Positions 1-9,112 of a stretch of 64,000 nt of DNA are shown in pieces (the first letter of the stretch is position 1; the number at the start of each line of letters is the position of its first letter). The position numbers and the translations under genes are program-made. Origin of the DNA: Acanthochlamys bracteata (Eukaryota; Streptophyta; Magnoliopsida; Pandanales; Velloziaceae); the NCBI GenBank assembly GCA_019914995.1, contig CM034126.1, forward strand, positions 14,513,001 through 14,577,000, written 5' to 3'. Under the pieces are notes generated by a model. The model was not told the DNA's origin. It made no database searches and was given only the letters and a program-made list of their open reading frames with translations.

Positions 1-253
1 TCTTTTTTATCCTTTAGAAGGCCATATATGTTCTTTTCTTTTCTTCTCTGACTGAAGACGTGGTTTTTGGATGGAGCATAATGTCATACAAGGATCCATG
101 TATAACCCAACATAGTGAAGTGAAATTCCCACCCCAACCCATAAGTTGAAGTCTACCAAATTTTTCAATAGTTTGGCTGTTGAATTACTTCCTCTCATTT
201 AATTGAGCAGTACATATGTTTTGCCCTATTCATATTTCTTCTCTTGCCTGCAG

Positions 254-3200
254 AGGGTAGATTTCAGTAAAAGTTCAATTTCTGCTGAAGGAATGAGTAG
301 CATCGCTCATTTGTTCAGGTGTATTGTGGAGTCTCATCTAAATGGTAACTGTTAGCACCTGTATAATGCTTCTTTCATTTTCTTAAAGGGTTCTCTTTTC
401 TCTTCTTAAATACTTTCATGCTAACTTCTGAGCTGCATTGTGGTCACAGCTTCTGCTCAATCAGCCTTTGATGATGACGATGACTCTGATTATTTTGTGG
501 CATCTGTTTTGCGTATGTTTCTTGGCTACATCTCGTCTTAAACGGTTTTAAGTGTTTGTTTCTATCACGTGATCTCTTTTATTCTTACCTTGATTTTCTT
601 TTCGTATGCAGAAAGAGATGAAAGGTTGAGGTCATTTGCTCTAATTGCTCGAGCAGCAGCTGATGTTACTGTTCCTTTTCTCATAGGGTTATTTGCCCAA
701 CGTGTTTCTTTACTTTCTCAGGTGGACCTCGGACTCTTGACCTATTGTCACTATTTGCCCTTCTTTTTAAGGGAGATCTTGGTTGCAATTGGTACATGTG
801 AATTTACATGAAACAAGTTCTTATGTGCTCTTAAGGATGCAGATGTTGCATCTTCATGGTACTTTGGTATCTAACATAAGATAGTTGCTGGATTATTGCT
901 TGTACGTAAGTTTATTTGATTCTCTAGGTAATACAAGATAATTTCTTGTGGGATTACATTATTGGCTTTTAATAGGTCTAACTTGCACTATATGATCTGA
1001 GAAAATGCTGATCAAACGGATTTACAATTAGTTTGTATATGCTTCTGCCATTGATTGAGACTGGAAATTCATAATTGGTGTGGAGGAGCCCCTCTTGGAT
1101 AAGTTGGACGAAAAGGCAATGTTCTGTTGGTGTGCCTGGTGGCATACTTCAGATAGTTTTGAATCTCTTGATGTGAGGCTAGCTCTAGATACATATGTCA
1201 TGCATCTTTATTACTGGTTGTTAGTTGATTTAACTTCTGCTGCAAAAGCTTGTGGAGAATTTGAACATGTAGAAGCTTTTATTTATGGCATGTTGCTGGC
1301 AACTAGCTGCATCTATTGCATCAACAATCATTAATCACCTTCACATTTTCATTGTTCTTAACTTCATTTATGACTCTTTTTTCTTTCTATTGTCTAGGGT
1401 ACAACTGGTGCTGATCACACTAGTGTCTTGGAAGAACTATACTGGTTCCTTTTGATGGCTGGTCATGTTCTGACAGATTCAGGAGAAGGGGAGACAGTAC
1501 TAGTAATACTATACTTTCTAATCTTCTTATGTACTTTGCGTTCTCTCATAGAATCTGGGATTGCTCTCAGTTTATGAATCAAAGGGTGCTAAATTATATT
1601 TAGCACTTGTGTCACAAGTTGCTAGTAATGTTTTACTTTCTAATCTTCTTATGTCACAAGTTGCACTTTTCAACAAAACTTTTGCATCTATCTACTAGGT
1701 GGCTTTCCTCTTCATAAATAGCGTAGTGGGCACTACCAGACCATTTAGTTAACGATTTTGATGATGCCTGACCTTTTCTCAAGCTTAATATGGCAAACTG
1801 CAATCAGCCATAAATATAGAAATGGGAGTGATACAAAACTATTGTGTTTCATCAACGAAGTCTTATGCAAATATATGTCCTTAATTTGCAAGCCTCTCTC
1901 TGTGGCATTTGTAGGGAATGTACTATTGTTTGAGAAATTATAATACAAGAAACTTAAGAAAGAAAATGATGATATTTTATGTGGTTGCAGAAAATTTTGG
2001 TGTCATAGTGTTTACACCAATGGGCTCTTTTGACATTTATGTTCCTTTTTACTGAAACCAGATGATGATGTATATCTTTGATGAGCAGGTTCCAGAAGCG
2101 TTGTTGATTTCCTTTTTGGGTGTCTTAGAAGAAGCTCAGCATCCTGTGGTTGTCTTGTCATGGTATAATGTTTGATCATCAGATGTGTACTTATGTAAAT
2201 TCTTTAGTAAGATTTTAGGCAATTTTGATTTTTAAAGAAATTTATATTCATACATCCACTTACAACTTGGCTTTCATTATTTTTGGTTATATTCATATCA
2301 ATTTCTGATTGTAGTTAATATAAAGCAGCTTGTGCTGCCTTGAACCTTTGACTACGTAAAGTAAGCAGCAAAGATCTCATATTGATTATTTTTGTCTACT
2401 TATTTTGTTTATGCTCTTGTAAGAAGTTGTTGAGTGTTTTTTCTTGTGAGTTTTGGTTGAGTCTTGTGAATAAGAAATTTTTTGTTTCAAATCTGTTTAA
2501 TTGTTGTCTGAAAATCATGACTCATAACATGTCCTCATCTTGCACCCGCTGATCAGCTGCCACTAATCAGCCATGCCTTATTGCTTTATAACTTCATTTT
2601 GATGTTAGTGATGGTACGGATTTGCAAATTCTGCCTATCCTAAGAACCCAAAGGATCTTCATCTCTAATTGAATAATCCGACTTTCTTCAGGAGGAGACA
2701 TGTATTGGAATGTATTCTGAAAGTCATGTGTATCCTTACTCTTGCAATATTGAAGGAAGTTCTTTATCTTTGGTGGTGAACAGAGTATATGAAATTTCAA
2801 TTTAAATTATTTGGATGGGATTTCAAATTACCATGCCATAATGTGTTCAATAATCTGTCTAGTTTCGCTTAGGTCTGTGCAATTGCACCAAACTGAGTTG
2901 TGAAGGAACCCCACTACCACTGAAGTGGCTTGGGTTCAAATCCCGGCTGTTTGGGATATCTCAAAAGAAGATTTTCTTGTGTATCATGACGTGTCTATGA
3001 GCCATCTTGCTGCTGTTGACAATTTTGTTTTTTGGATTGTTTATATTCAAACAGGTCAATCTTGGAATTTGCTAGACGGAGCTTAGATGCAGAAGCAAGA
3101 ATGAGAAACTTTAGTCCACGACTTATGGAGGTAAGTTCATTTTTCTCAGATTGGTGAGTTGTCTTTAGGATCCATAAGTACATTGTCATACTCATATCCA

Positions 3201-6200
3201 TGTTATGGTAGATTTCACCTTAATCACCTGGAGTATAAATTTTTTGATCACTGTCTCTCAAATATGAGAAATATAATTTATAGTAGCTAGAGTGAGACCC
3301 ATTTATAACAATGTGCTCTGAGATTTCTGTAAAAGTTTTATCATCTTGTGTTATTGAAGTTGGACGTGGACAAAAAGAGTTCTTCTCTGTAACAGACATC
3401 CTTGCAGTTCCATATTTCAGAGCTGAGGGTCATACATCAAGTACCTTTACTTTAGTACCTTCTATCATTTATGACTTTTTTTTCTAAATCTTGCCCAGTT
3501 TTCTTTCTTTTCTTTTTCTCTATGGAAACATCAGGGAATCTTGATTTATATCAAGTATGCAATATTATATAATTGTCTTTCTGTTACGTTATTTCTGTAA
3601 TTTAACACCTTTGGAGTTATGTATAGGTATTAGTATAGCCTCAAAGTAGTTGACCTCAATGGTATCGGCATCTTTCATTAGTAGTATTCATGCAATAACT
3701 TTGGTGGTGTTTCCTCTCAATGCAGGCAGTCGTATGGTTTTTGGCCAGGTGGGTTGACACATATCTCATGCCACTTGATTCTGGCAAAGAACATGACAGT
3801 GCACCCACTCATGGAGATGGGCAGTCTCATGGTGAACTACGCTCTAGAAGGATGTTGCTCAGTTTTGCTGGTGACAATGACCAAGGAAAACATGTGCTTG
3901 ATATAACTGTCCGTGTGGCCATGACAGCACTTACCTTCTATGCTGGGGAGTTTGAGCTCCAGGTGCACATTTACATATTCTTAAAATGGCTTTAGTGGTC
4001 CAAGGCTCATTTACTTTTCTAGTGAGCTGTACAAAATTCATAAATACTATTTGATGGGCTACGTGAGTTATTTCAGTTGATGGAATTGATTTTCACTTTC
4101 TTGGCAGGGTCTCACTTGTAACCAACTTCTAGTTGCATTGGTTCGTCGAAGAAATGTTTGTGCTCACCTAGTAACATTGGTGAGTAACTAACTGACTTTT
4201 GCTTCTTATTATAGATTTCTTACTGTGCTGTGTTGTCTTGGTTCCATGATGGATGTGGTTGGTTTGAAATTTTTATGTAGCAATTTTGTTTGTGGAACAT
4301 CTAGTTTGTAGGTGAATGAATGTGAGCTGGATGAATTGTGGTTAGCAAGCTGTAACTAAACAAAATCAATTGTGTTTGTTCTTGGCTTAGGTTCATTTGC
4401 CTTTCCTTTTGTTAAGCAAATTTGGCTGGCCTTTAGTTTCTAATGTTGCAAATTCTATGTTCTGCAGGATTCCTGGCGTGATCTAGCAACTGCCTTTGCA
4501 CATGAGAGGAGTTTTTCACTAAGTGCTCGTCTGCAAGTAGGTTATTCACACTAAAACACATACGCACTATCGTTTGTTCTTTCAAGTGTTAAAACCATCT
4601 GCTTAATTTTCTTTGGTAGCGCTCTCTTGCCAGAGCACTTGTATGTGCAGCTTGTGGTATGAGAGATCCAGAAGCATCCAATCAGTTAGTTGATGTTACC
4701 CGATATATTACATTTCTAATTTGTTTGATACAATAATCAATGTCTGATTATAATGTTTTGAGCGTCCTGCAGGTATGTTAGGGATCTGATGGGTCCAACA
4801 GCAGCCTATATAGTAGAAATTTCTGCTCGTAGTGACCTCAGGGTTGTTGCCCAGCAAGCTGATGCGATATATATGGTAAGACAGCATGTCAGGCACAACA
4901 GTGATACTCGTTAACTTCATATTAGTAAGACTTTAGGTTCAAGGTTGTCAAAATCGGAATTTTAGGTAGGATCATTCTGTTTAAGTAGAATGGTAAAATC
5001 AGAATTTTAAGTAAGATTGTAAGATTGAAAAAGCATTTTTTTAATAACTACAAAAATTAGGTAATATTTATTAAAATCTTTTTAGAAACTTCAAATATTA
5101 TTCTTAATACCTCAAAAAAATTAAATAAAATTTTATAGAAAACCCCTCTAAATTTAACAGAAAATTCCTTCAAATTTTACAAAAAAAATCCTCTAAATAT
5201 ATGTAATTGTAAACTTTTATTAAAAACCCTTCCAATTTTACAAATAATCCATAAAATCTGAAATTGTAACGATTTTAACGATCTTACGATTTAAATCCTG
5301 ATCTTTCTACTATCTCACAAAAAATGTGATTTGTGGGAAACAAGATCGTTTTGTGGATATAAAATCATAAAATTTTAGGATTTTAAGATTCAAATCGGGA
5401 TTTTGATAACCATGTTTAGGTTAGTTGCTTGTTGGAACGCTTGAGAGGAGCAGAAAGGGCCACACAACCACGAACTCAGAAGGGTACTTTTGAGATAGGT
5501 CAAGCTGTGATGAAACCTCTCTTGATTCTTCTTGAAGCTTATAAGAATCAGGTACATCTGTTTCTTCACATCATGTATTCATAGAGTATTGACCTAGTTA
5601 GCATTTACGGTTACAGTGATAGACTGATAGTGACTTCCTCAATTTATAGTAGCAGGGCTGAATATAAGTTATTTATGTAATGTTGCCATGTCTAGTCTGC
5701 AGTTGTGTACCTGATACTGAAATTTGTGGTTGGTTTTGTGGATGCACAAGTTGCATTTCTAAATGCTAAAGATACAGCATTGTTGGTTAGCTTTTGTTTG
5801 AGGTTGCTGCAAATATACTCATCTCACAACATTGGCAAGGTAAGGCTCTGTCTCAATTCTTTGGATCTTCTACTAGTCAGCTATAATGCAAATTTCATGT
5901 AAAAGCTTTAGCTGTTTTTAGATCTATCGATATATCTAGCCAACACCCCAACTCCTACTCTGAAGTGTTCAATACCAAATCATGTAAAGCTTTACTACTG
6001 CTTCTTCTTTTTAGAAGTGAAGGTTCAGGCAGAAAAGATGGTTTGGTTACTTGGGTACCATCTTGCTTTATCCATCTGGACATGATTCTTTCTAATTATG
6101 TAAACAATCATTATCTAATCTGGGTGGTGATTCCATTCTATTTCATCTTATTAGTCACATATCATCATGCTTGGTTTGCCAGGTTTTGTTGACTCAATCA

Positions 6201-7912
6201 ATAAGCCTGCAGAATGAGGCGCAAACAGAAAAATACAAAGATATACGTGCCTTACTTCAGCTCCTCACCAATATATGCTCTAAAGATCTGGTATCAAATG
6301 CTACTTTCATTCTGGATAAAGATTTCTGACTGAACTGGACGTCTTAATCGTGGTGGCATTGTTGCAGGTTGACTTTTCATCAAGTTTTAATGAGGCTGAT
6401 ACCCCTGATATTGCTGAGGTAAGCTTATGTTATTTCTTCTGCAATTTAAGATCTTAATGGATCTCTGCAAAAGCTTTTGAGGGATCATAACATGCAAAGT
6501 GATTGATGATGTACAGGTCATTTATGTTGGTCTACATATTGTTACCCCTTTAATATCATTGGACCTTCTCAAGTACCCTAAACTCAGCCATGATGTAAGT
6601 CCATTTCTTGTTCATGCATTGCAAAATATCTGGTGAACATTAGTGCCTATGTTTTCTCTTTTTGTGTTCAGTATTTTGCGCTCATATCACACATGTTGGA
6701 AGTGTACCCCGAGAAGGTTTCCCAGCTGAGTAGGGAAGCCTTTACATGTATAGTCAGAACCCTCGACTTTGGAGTTCAGCATCAGGTATGTGTATTTCCC
6801 AAAAGCTTACCGTTTTAGGTTTTGCTATTTGATGTAAATGTGAATGTATGCAATTCCCCTTATGAGGATGCTACCAAATATTGTGCAATACTTCAATTTC
6901 ATTTAACATTTTCTTTCTGCGCTTCCACAAATTAATTTACTAAGCTCAAATAAGAAATTGCTCCTTGATGTGATCCTTACAGAATGTCAAATCATGCTCA
7001 GAATTTCCTTAGTAGGAAATAATACCTAAGGCATCACTATTCTTTACAAGGAAAAGAATTTTGAAAGAAATTTTGTGTTAGTCTCTACTTCCGCCCATGT
7101 AAAATAGATGTTGTCTGTAATATTCTGTAGAACTGATGTATATGGAAAAGCATAACAGTATATGGTGGGTATATATCAGTGACATTATTTCCAATTTCTG
7201 GATACTGATATATTGATATGTGCTTTCCAATTTACAGGATACTGATATTGTTGATATGTGCTTGAGAGCAATAAATGCACTTGCTTCCTACCATTATAAA
7301 GAGAAACTATCAGGCCAAACAGGATTAGGAACACATGTTATGGAGTCTCAAGGAGTGAACGGAGAGGCTCAGGAAAGTAGTGTACTCGGCCATTTCTTGC
7401 AAGTTCTTCTACAACTATTATTATCTGAAGATTTCAGGTAAATTACCTAAGCAATTGGCAAGATGAAACTAGTTGATTTGTATTAGGCTAATTTCGATCC
7501 CCTTTTGTAAACCTATAACTGTTACTTTTTAACTTATGCACCCACTGTACTGATGACACTTTGATTTAATCACAGAATGGAACTAGCCAGTTCTACAGCA
7601 GATGCTCTCTTTCCTCTGCTATTGTGTGAACAAAATCTCTACCAGGTACTTATATTGTGTACAAGTTGTGGTTGGCGTTGTCTTTTCTCACTGGAGATTA
7701 TTGATCATCTTTGCTGCATACAGGGCCAGCTACACAACTTGCTGGAGAGGCAGACGAATCCAGTAGTTATAACTAGACTGGCTAATGCATTCCACGCGTT
7801 AACAAGCTCAAATCAGCTGTCGTTTTCGCTTGACAGAATAAACCGTCAAAAGTTCAGGAAGAACATCCATGCCTTTCTGACAGAAATTTCTGGTTTCATG
7901 AGGATATTTTGA
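254..7912 (+). CDS. XPO4: Exportin-4-like nuclear export receptor (5' part outside window)
   Basis: This is the C-terminal part of a beta-karyopherin that exports cargo from the nucleus with Ran-GTP. Twenty exons are visible: 254-344, 450-512, 612-721, 1398-1502, 2089-2162, 3055-3130, 3726-3962, 4108-4179, 4468-4536, 4620-4684, 4773-4875, 5420-5551, 5696-5839, 6183-6290, 6368-6418, 6517-6594, 6672-6785, 7238-7437, 7576-7645 and 7724-7912. All junctions are GT-AG, phases agree throughout, and together they encode 716 residues to a TGA. Family-like stretches include an acidic run before DYFVAS, then RLRSFALIARAAADVTVP, SVLEELYWFLLMAGHVLTDS, ACGMRDPEA and LLERLRGAERATQP. These match remembered plant and animal exportin-4; the rest is helical, HEAT-like sequence. 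About 60% of the usual length of roughly 1150 residues is present. I saw no lesion. One intron (4876-5419) carries a MITE that ends at the acceptor. Confidence in the family is high; cargo is not known from sequence. Confidence 0.9.
4940..5414. mobile_element. hAT-type MITE with perfect 8-bp target duplication, in an exportin-4 intron
   Basis: A 475-bp AT-rich, non-coding element. The left end reads CAAGGTTGTCAAAATC. The right end, reverse-complemented, reads CATGGTTATCAAAATC. It is flanked by identical 8-mers TTTAGGTT at 4932-4939 and 5415-5422. Terminal inverted repeats plus an 8-bp duplication are the signature of hAT insertion. The right-hand duplication holds the 3' splice site of the next exon: intron end TTTAG, exon start GTT. 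Confidence 0.8.
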
Positions 7913-9112
7913 ATTAGGGGAGGGGATGTACGATATAAACAGAGTTGCACCAGATCATGGAGGTAATTGCTTTTTGACTCTAGTTGACCTGGGCTTAGGA
8001 TGGTGGGCTCAGGTTGATCACCTTCCACAATCGAAATTGTACCAATGTTTTTAACAGGAGGGTACACCATGCCTTGCTCCCATCAGTTTAGATCTTGTAG
8101 CTCATCGCAACGATTGTGAATTTAATCTGTTATCGTTGTTGTAATTATTGTAATTATGAAGACAAACAGACTGCAGTCAGGATTAATTGAAGCATAGAAT
8201 CCGGTTGTGATGCCTTAAGGTTCTGAATTGTTATGATAGTATAGTCTTCATATCCTATACGATGCTAACATCAAGCATACAAAGTGGGAAGCACTTTGCG
8301 TCAAGACAGTGCCGTCGCTACAACGCTTCTGTATTCTTAAGAAAGGACTCGAGTACTATTACATAAATCTCGACTGTTTTCCAGTACAATACAATTATAC
8401 GGACTGGAAGGCAACACTAGGCGTATTATTCCACAGTTTTTTATTAATGAGTTTTGCGGGAGTTCCACTATACAGATGATAACCGGTAGGATGTAAATTT
8501 GCCAACTGGACGGCGACGCTACAGATACACTTGCATACTTTTTTGACTAATGTGCTTTCTACCCGCGGACACGCTCTGACCTCATAGGTGACTGCCAGAC
8601 GCATGAGATATCAAGTAACTAACGCGCATACAACTGCACCACCATGATCAAAAACAGATGTACGTCTCTTTTTCAGAAATTGGAAATAGGCAGGAAGTAT
8701 AATCAGTCTTCAAAATAACATACTAAATGGCATTATACACAACTTAAACGACCTTCATACAAATTCCAGGGAGACGGCTTTCAACAGCGTATCTATACAG
8801 AAACCTATAACTATCAATTATTATCACATATAAGAAGCCCCACATACAGCCAGCAACTAGTTAAAGGTGAATGTTACTAGAAGGAAAGACCTGTTATACC
8901 TTCACAAGAAGAATAACTGAACCATCTTCCATAGTAGCAAATCTGTTCCTGTCAAAGTTTTATAACCAATAATCACAAACACAAAATTAGAAGGGGAGAA
9001 ATGAAGAAAAAGAAAACACGCACGATAATAACAAGCATCCTAAATTCATTTTCTCCAGTTAGGCTACTGACCCAATGTATACCAAGGTCAATAGCACTAG
9101 AAGCCCACGCCT
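7913..9112. other. Exportin-4 3' flank and intergenic stretch
   Basis: This holds the exportin-4 3' UTR, whose end I could not fix, and then sequence without a recognisable gene. The part around 8300-8640 is richer in CpG than its surroundings and has a 69-codon open frame on the minus strand (8395-8604), but its translation resembles nothing I know. Confidence 0.4.

Follow-up and report, generated by a model that had tools for sequence, protein, structure and literature searches.

A hAT-type MITE insertion duplicates a 3' splice site of an exportin-4 gene in Acanthochlamys bracteata

Introduction

Insertions of maize Ds elements in genes get spliced out like introns. Ds resembles the element described here in belonging to the hAT elements, in making an 8-bp target-site duplication (TSD) and in being spliced near its ends, but Ds insertions of this kind lie in exons and are often imprecisely spliced, whereas the present insertion lies at the end of an intron.

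A second group of related systems consists of introners, whose splice sites come from TSDs according to the part of Gozashti et al. 2022 (PMC9860276) that was available to us. As that part describes them, introners are, like our element, DNA elements, with terminal repeats in some families, whose TSD gives a splice site, and mRNA length is unchanged in most families; introners make new introns in many genes, whereas the element studied here enlarged an existing intron at its acceptor. MITE-associated splice-site changes have also been described in mulberry (PMC6593561) and, in a review, in carrot and other plants (PMC12595863). In the available portions of these two sources, the MITEs are similar to ours in being genic, with hAT-like ones in carrot among them, and tied to changed splice-site use; they differ in that the acceptor of the present case is a TSD copy of host sequence, as opposed to a motif of the MITE, and that the main product is expected to be normal. 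Twin introns (PMC12403724) were considered as a further parallel and do not fit, no TSD being reported in the accessible part of that paper. Among the titles and abstract openings of the open-licence literature we recognised no report of the same event, and found no paper there that combines recursive splicing, or a tandem acceptor, with a TSD.

Here we analyse an insertion in a 64,000-nt stretch of A. bracteata contig CM034126.1 (positions 14,513,001 to 14,577,000; hereafter, the window). Coordinates are positions in the window, and features lie on the + strand unless stated otherwise.

Results

The gene that received the insertion was reconstructed from 14 exons joined by GT-AG introns (3726 to 7913), which give 543 codons and a stop. 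Its 543-residue product matched residues 618-1110 of exportin-4 in PDB 5DLQ (5dlq_B; E 8.3e-57), which we take to be the mouse protein, and the identification as exportin-4 made in an earlier note on this DNA is thus borne out. The exon upstream of the insertion (4773..4875) ends in ...ADAIYM within the open frame that matches 5DLQ, and the downstream exon (5420..5551), also covered by the match, begins with VSCLLERLRGAERA. The joined product is fixed because the alignment with exportin-4 is gapless across the junction ...ADAIYM/VSCLLERL, and the right-hand AG at 5418-5419 gives that product, reading from 5420 being in frame as the earlier note had stated. A 78-residue query found no match in PDB, where the 543-residue query did match; in the plant's own genome the shorter query pointed to one exportin-4 locus; its third match, the sole one at another place, lay on contig C446 and had an E-value of 1.24. 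A Pfam scan of one unrelated frame returned no match.

At the boundary between these exons the octamer TTTAGGTT is found twice, at 4932..4939 and 5415..5422, in copies that are identical at 8/8 bases and lie 483 bp apart. Two given 8-mers would match by chance with a probability of ~3e-5 at the local composition, and five copies of TTTAGGTT are present on the window's + strand, which makes the 8-mer alone no rarity; we count the pair as a TSD because both copies abut ends that are defined by other elements. The left copy is the old acceptor and would end an intron of 61 nt, the left remnant of the old intron (4876..4931) lying between it and the donor. The right copy carries the acceptor taken to be in use, which would end an intron of 544 nt and start the exon at 5420. 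The 5' splice site of the host intron (ATG/GTAAGA, GT at 4876..4877), presumably the one in use, had a matrix score of 5.9, within the range of -1.7 to 10.6 obtained for 15 other donors when each was left out in turn. An own-genome DNA search detected, at its sensitivity, no second copy of the element's flanks.

The sequence between the two copies (4940..5414) is an AT-rich, 475-bp hAT-type MITE that belongs to an own-genome repeat family with the same ends, and 4940-5414 contains no open frame of 120 aa. Its 16-base terminal inverted repeats are CAAGGTTGTCAAAATC at the left (4940..4955), which is the exact family pattern, and, on the other strand, CATGGTTATCAAAATC at the right (5399..5414, - strand), which differs from that pattern once and has the form found in the nearest subfamily; the bases that immediately precede the right acceptor come from the right repeat. 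The terminal inverted repeats of hAT elements are short and have the general form CA(A/G)NG, with which the termini here, CAAGGTT(G/A)TCAAAATC, agree. Elements of the hAT superfamily typically combine an 8-bp duplication with termini of this kind; the P and Merlin superfamilies, which also make 8-bp duplications, stay as candidates. With a perfect TSD at family-defined ends, the MITE and the 8-bp duplication spanning the AG proposed in the earlier note hold. Between 5126 and 5240 the element contains four degenerate copies of a 31-nt repeat, spaced 22-39 nt apart, and its middle may have grown in part by tandem duplication.

We examined the family in the genome assembly of 195.5 Mb in 557 contigs. 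Contig C1 has 14.9 Mb, C20 has 6.4 Mb and C21 has 40 kb, a step in size that suggests about 20 chromosomes. The terminal pattern CARGGTTNTCAAAATC, with two degenerate positions, occurred 83 + 83 times, compared with 1 + 1 for a reversed control. Fifty matches, including the window itself, were obtained in the own-genome DNA search; the 49 non-self matches started at query positions 62-66 in 28 cases, ended at 535-543 in 29 and did both in 15 (query 65 corresponds to window position 4940 and 539 to 5414), the others being partial or shifted. A scan for paired termini in the window and 67 loci yielded 55 distinct elements, a selected set in that exact terminus matches guided the choice of 38 of the 67 loci and the scan keeps, for each locus, the end pair with the fewest mismatches in termini and TSD. 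The flanking 8-mers showed no difference in 23 of these elements, one in 14, two in 3 and at least three in 15, the last class including wrong or decayed ends; thus 37/55 differed at one base at most, while control 8-mers, taken 20 bp farther from the element, differed at three or more positions in 55/55. The 23 elements with perfect TSDs were 433-533 bp long, a range that includes the window copy. Only the window element had AGGT or ACCT in both TSD copies, one other among the 55 (L057) having ACCT in one copy.

Compared with a consensus built from its 14 nearest relatives the window copy differs by 11.5%; compared with that of all aligned elements, which is dominated by a younger subfamily, it differs by 25.6%. 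The family is two-layered: one layer consists of many elements of ~480-533 bp (L034-L071), which differ from the overall consensus by 5-10%; the other, older one (L002-L015) includes the window copy and differs from its own consensus by 12-20%. Two partial family copies (L017 and L020; G000:C6:2543164-2544055) are adjacent in the same orientation within ~900 bp. For the hAT dimerisation domain, 150 matches were scored in the genome, several of them in long open frames; within ~1.5 kb on each side of 30 hAT loci, a search for an autonomous partner of the MITE found no family terminus at up to 3 mismatches.

The reading that we favour, and regard as very probable, is that an exportin-4 intron was hit at its boundary with the exon, TTTAG/GTT, by a non-autonomous hAT-type element, and that the 8-bp staggered cut copied the acceptor such that the right copy kept an AG joined to the exon. 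The element would then have become part of the intron, now 544 nt long, and splicing would join the donor at 4876 with the right-hand AG at 5419. The left copy would be a relic whose 61-nt intron is too short for plant splicing, and the left remnant would most likely have been shortened after the insertion made its length irrelevant.

How the right acceptor might obtain a branch point bears on this reading. The sole YTNAY motif 8-80 nt before the right AG is TTGAT, 13 nt away, leaving 14-60 nt before the AG free of YTNAY, as in 1 of 15 comparison introns. A native candidate, TTAAC (4911..4915, with its A at 4914), lies 22 nt before the left AG, its distance to the donor being 38 nt. When 4876-5425 is folded in silico, pairing between the terminal repeats is predicted with probabilities of 0.957-0.987 at 13 of 16 positions and of 0.56-0.57 for the outer two pairs, one position being mismatched. 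The stem buries the A of TTGAT (unpaired 0.02) and places the native A at 4914, measured across it, ~30 nt before the right AG. It is conceivable, though doubtful, that the element is looped out in this way and that the native TTAAC serves the right acceptor: the left AG precedes the stem and would be met first, the distance from donor to native branch point would stay at 38 nt, the outer two pairs reach no more than 0.41-0.57, such a fold is predicted for every long inverted repeat, and the fold of the whole intron is only moderately better than shuffles (z -1.67, 3/100). In a longer fold (4773-5551) the stem was kept, but both the donor GU (unpaired 0.00-0.01) and the right AG (unpaired 0.29 and 0.12) were mostly paired, which speaks against the favoured reading. 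With the native TTAAC brought so close to the right AG by the predicted hairpin, the branch point could lie outside the element, and the earlier claim that branch point and pyrimidine tract must be MITE sequence was too strong; a native branch point with a looped-out element and a weaker branch point within the element are both possible on these models.

Acceptor strength was scored with a matrix built from 15 introns of the exportin-4 gene that we modelled ourselves. The set includes 345-449, 513-611 and the donor side of 3131-3725, which lie upstream of the 5DLQ-checked frame, and excludes acceptors 254, 1398, 2089 and 3055 and donors 722 and 1503, to which no partner was assigned. The right acceptor scored 3.7 and the left -0.3, values equalled or exceeded by 14% and 42%, respectively, of the 504 AGs in 100-9000. 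True acceptors left out in turn ranged from -1.9 to 10.0, and the left copy scored above 2 of the 15; the matrix separates poorly, and its scores leave the left copy in play.

The highest score among 23 AGs scanned in 4896-5439 belonged to an AG inside the MITE at 4968..4969 (4.4), above the right acceptor. This candidate cryptic acceptor would give a 94-nt intron with the native branch-point candidate 55 nt upstream, and the frame would stop after the four codons DHSV. That a fraction of transcripts uses it, the right acceptor remaining the main one, nevertheless seems rather unlikely to us: the score comes from a small matrix, and TTTTAGGTAGGAT is present in both consensus sequences, so that nothing marks the AG as selected. 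The same neighbourhood (4960-4972, TTTTAG/GTAG/GAT) combines a donor at 4966 (6.0) with the acceptor AG ending at 4969 (4.4), both scored with small matrices, and cryptic splicing inside the element is possible on these models.

Were both duplicated acceptors live, as the earlier note had suggested, use of the left one would produce a truncated transcript running into the MITE. All 8 bases are preserved in the left copy, which also has the good branch-point candidate TTAAC at 22 nt; its score lies above those of two real acceptors, and the frame from 4937 reads VQGCQNRNFR and then stops, these 10 codons agreeing with the early stop that the earlier note had predicted. Intron length argues against such use. 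The 15 other modelled introns of the gene measure 77-595 nt, and 90 kinesin introns from the same genome, estimated from profile coordinates (150 listed of 159 matches), are all at least 68 nt, the 43 with the tightest coordinates all being at least 71 nt; a smaller kinesin sample of 96 hand-picked rows gave 59 pairs, the shortest at 68 nt. Thirteen single kinesin matches carry 21-51 extra bases and none carries 52-68; these extra bases could be protein loops or short read-through introns. The minimum for plant introns is given as 70-73 nt by Goodall and Filipowicz 1990, as quoted in the available parts of PMC3095359 and PMC1626468. Because 61 nt falls below this quoted minimum and below all the modelled and estimated introns, leakage at the left copy is improbable and the copy is probably not usable today, which weakens the case for it as a live mis-splicing site; the AG at 4969, with its 94-nt intron, is the more plausible candidate for mis-splicing. 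Splicing of the ancestral intron must have worked, which makes a greater original length probable; bases would then have been lost from the left remnant after the insertion. The element itself has one 20-base deletion relative to its consensus, indicating that such base losses occur.

The state of the coding frame suggests that the gene still works with the element in place. At a divergence of 11.5%, 6.8 stops would be expected in 543 codons without selection, with 5.0 at 8.5% (half of the distance between the window copy and its nearest relative) and 3.0 at 5%; the corresponding probabilities of zero stops are 0.001, 0.006 and 0.05. About 27 frameshifts would be expected without selection at the element's crude indel rate. 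Neither stops nor frameshifts were found in the 543-codon frame. As the frame is open despite the 11.5% divergence, splicing across the element most likely works, and this reading of the sequence makes it most likely that exportin-4 is correctly made. If the source copy had already diverged, the insertion would be younger and the open-frame argument weaker. The right acceptor's want of a branch-point match in the usual range would suit a gene in decay, with splicing broken by the insertion and the open frame a remnant, but we consider this very improbable in view of the 543 codons that stayed open despite the divergence of the copy and of the genome search with the 78-residue query, in which no second locus was found.

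Recursive splicing, in which the left AG/GT would be a zero-length exon spliced first and the rebuilt donor would then join 5420, was rejected as scarcely credible: recursive splice sites do have the AG/GT form that the TSD holds, but the rebuilt donor ATG/GTTCAA is weak, its score of 0.2 being about the median (it is equalled or exceeded by 51% of the 548 GTs in 100-9000), and the first step needs a 61-nt intron.

Discussion

We return to the favoured reading, an acceptor-copying insertion with the right-hand AG in use. The AG of the right acceptor, presumably the one used, sits in the TSD and amounts to an introner-like supply of a splice site.

A further reading, which we advance tentatively and think less likely to be right than wrong, is one of neutral lock-in. 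The takeover of the acceptor by the element could have freed the old part of the intron to shrink below a spliceable length; the MITE would now be needed, as its clean loss would leave an unspliceable 61-nt intron. On this reading the predicted hairpin of the element may even keep the native branch point near enough to the copied acceptor to serve it.

General knowledge of MITEs or of splicing is unchanged by this case, which is a neat instance and not a new kind. Nature here provides a clean example of an insertion at a splice site that a target-site duplication can render harmless, and the case is also a testable one of an insertion that is perhaps hard to lose, as the intron surrounding it probably shrank.
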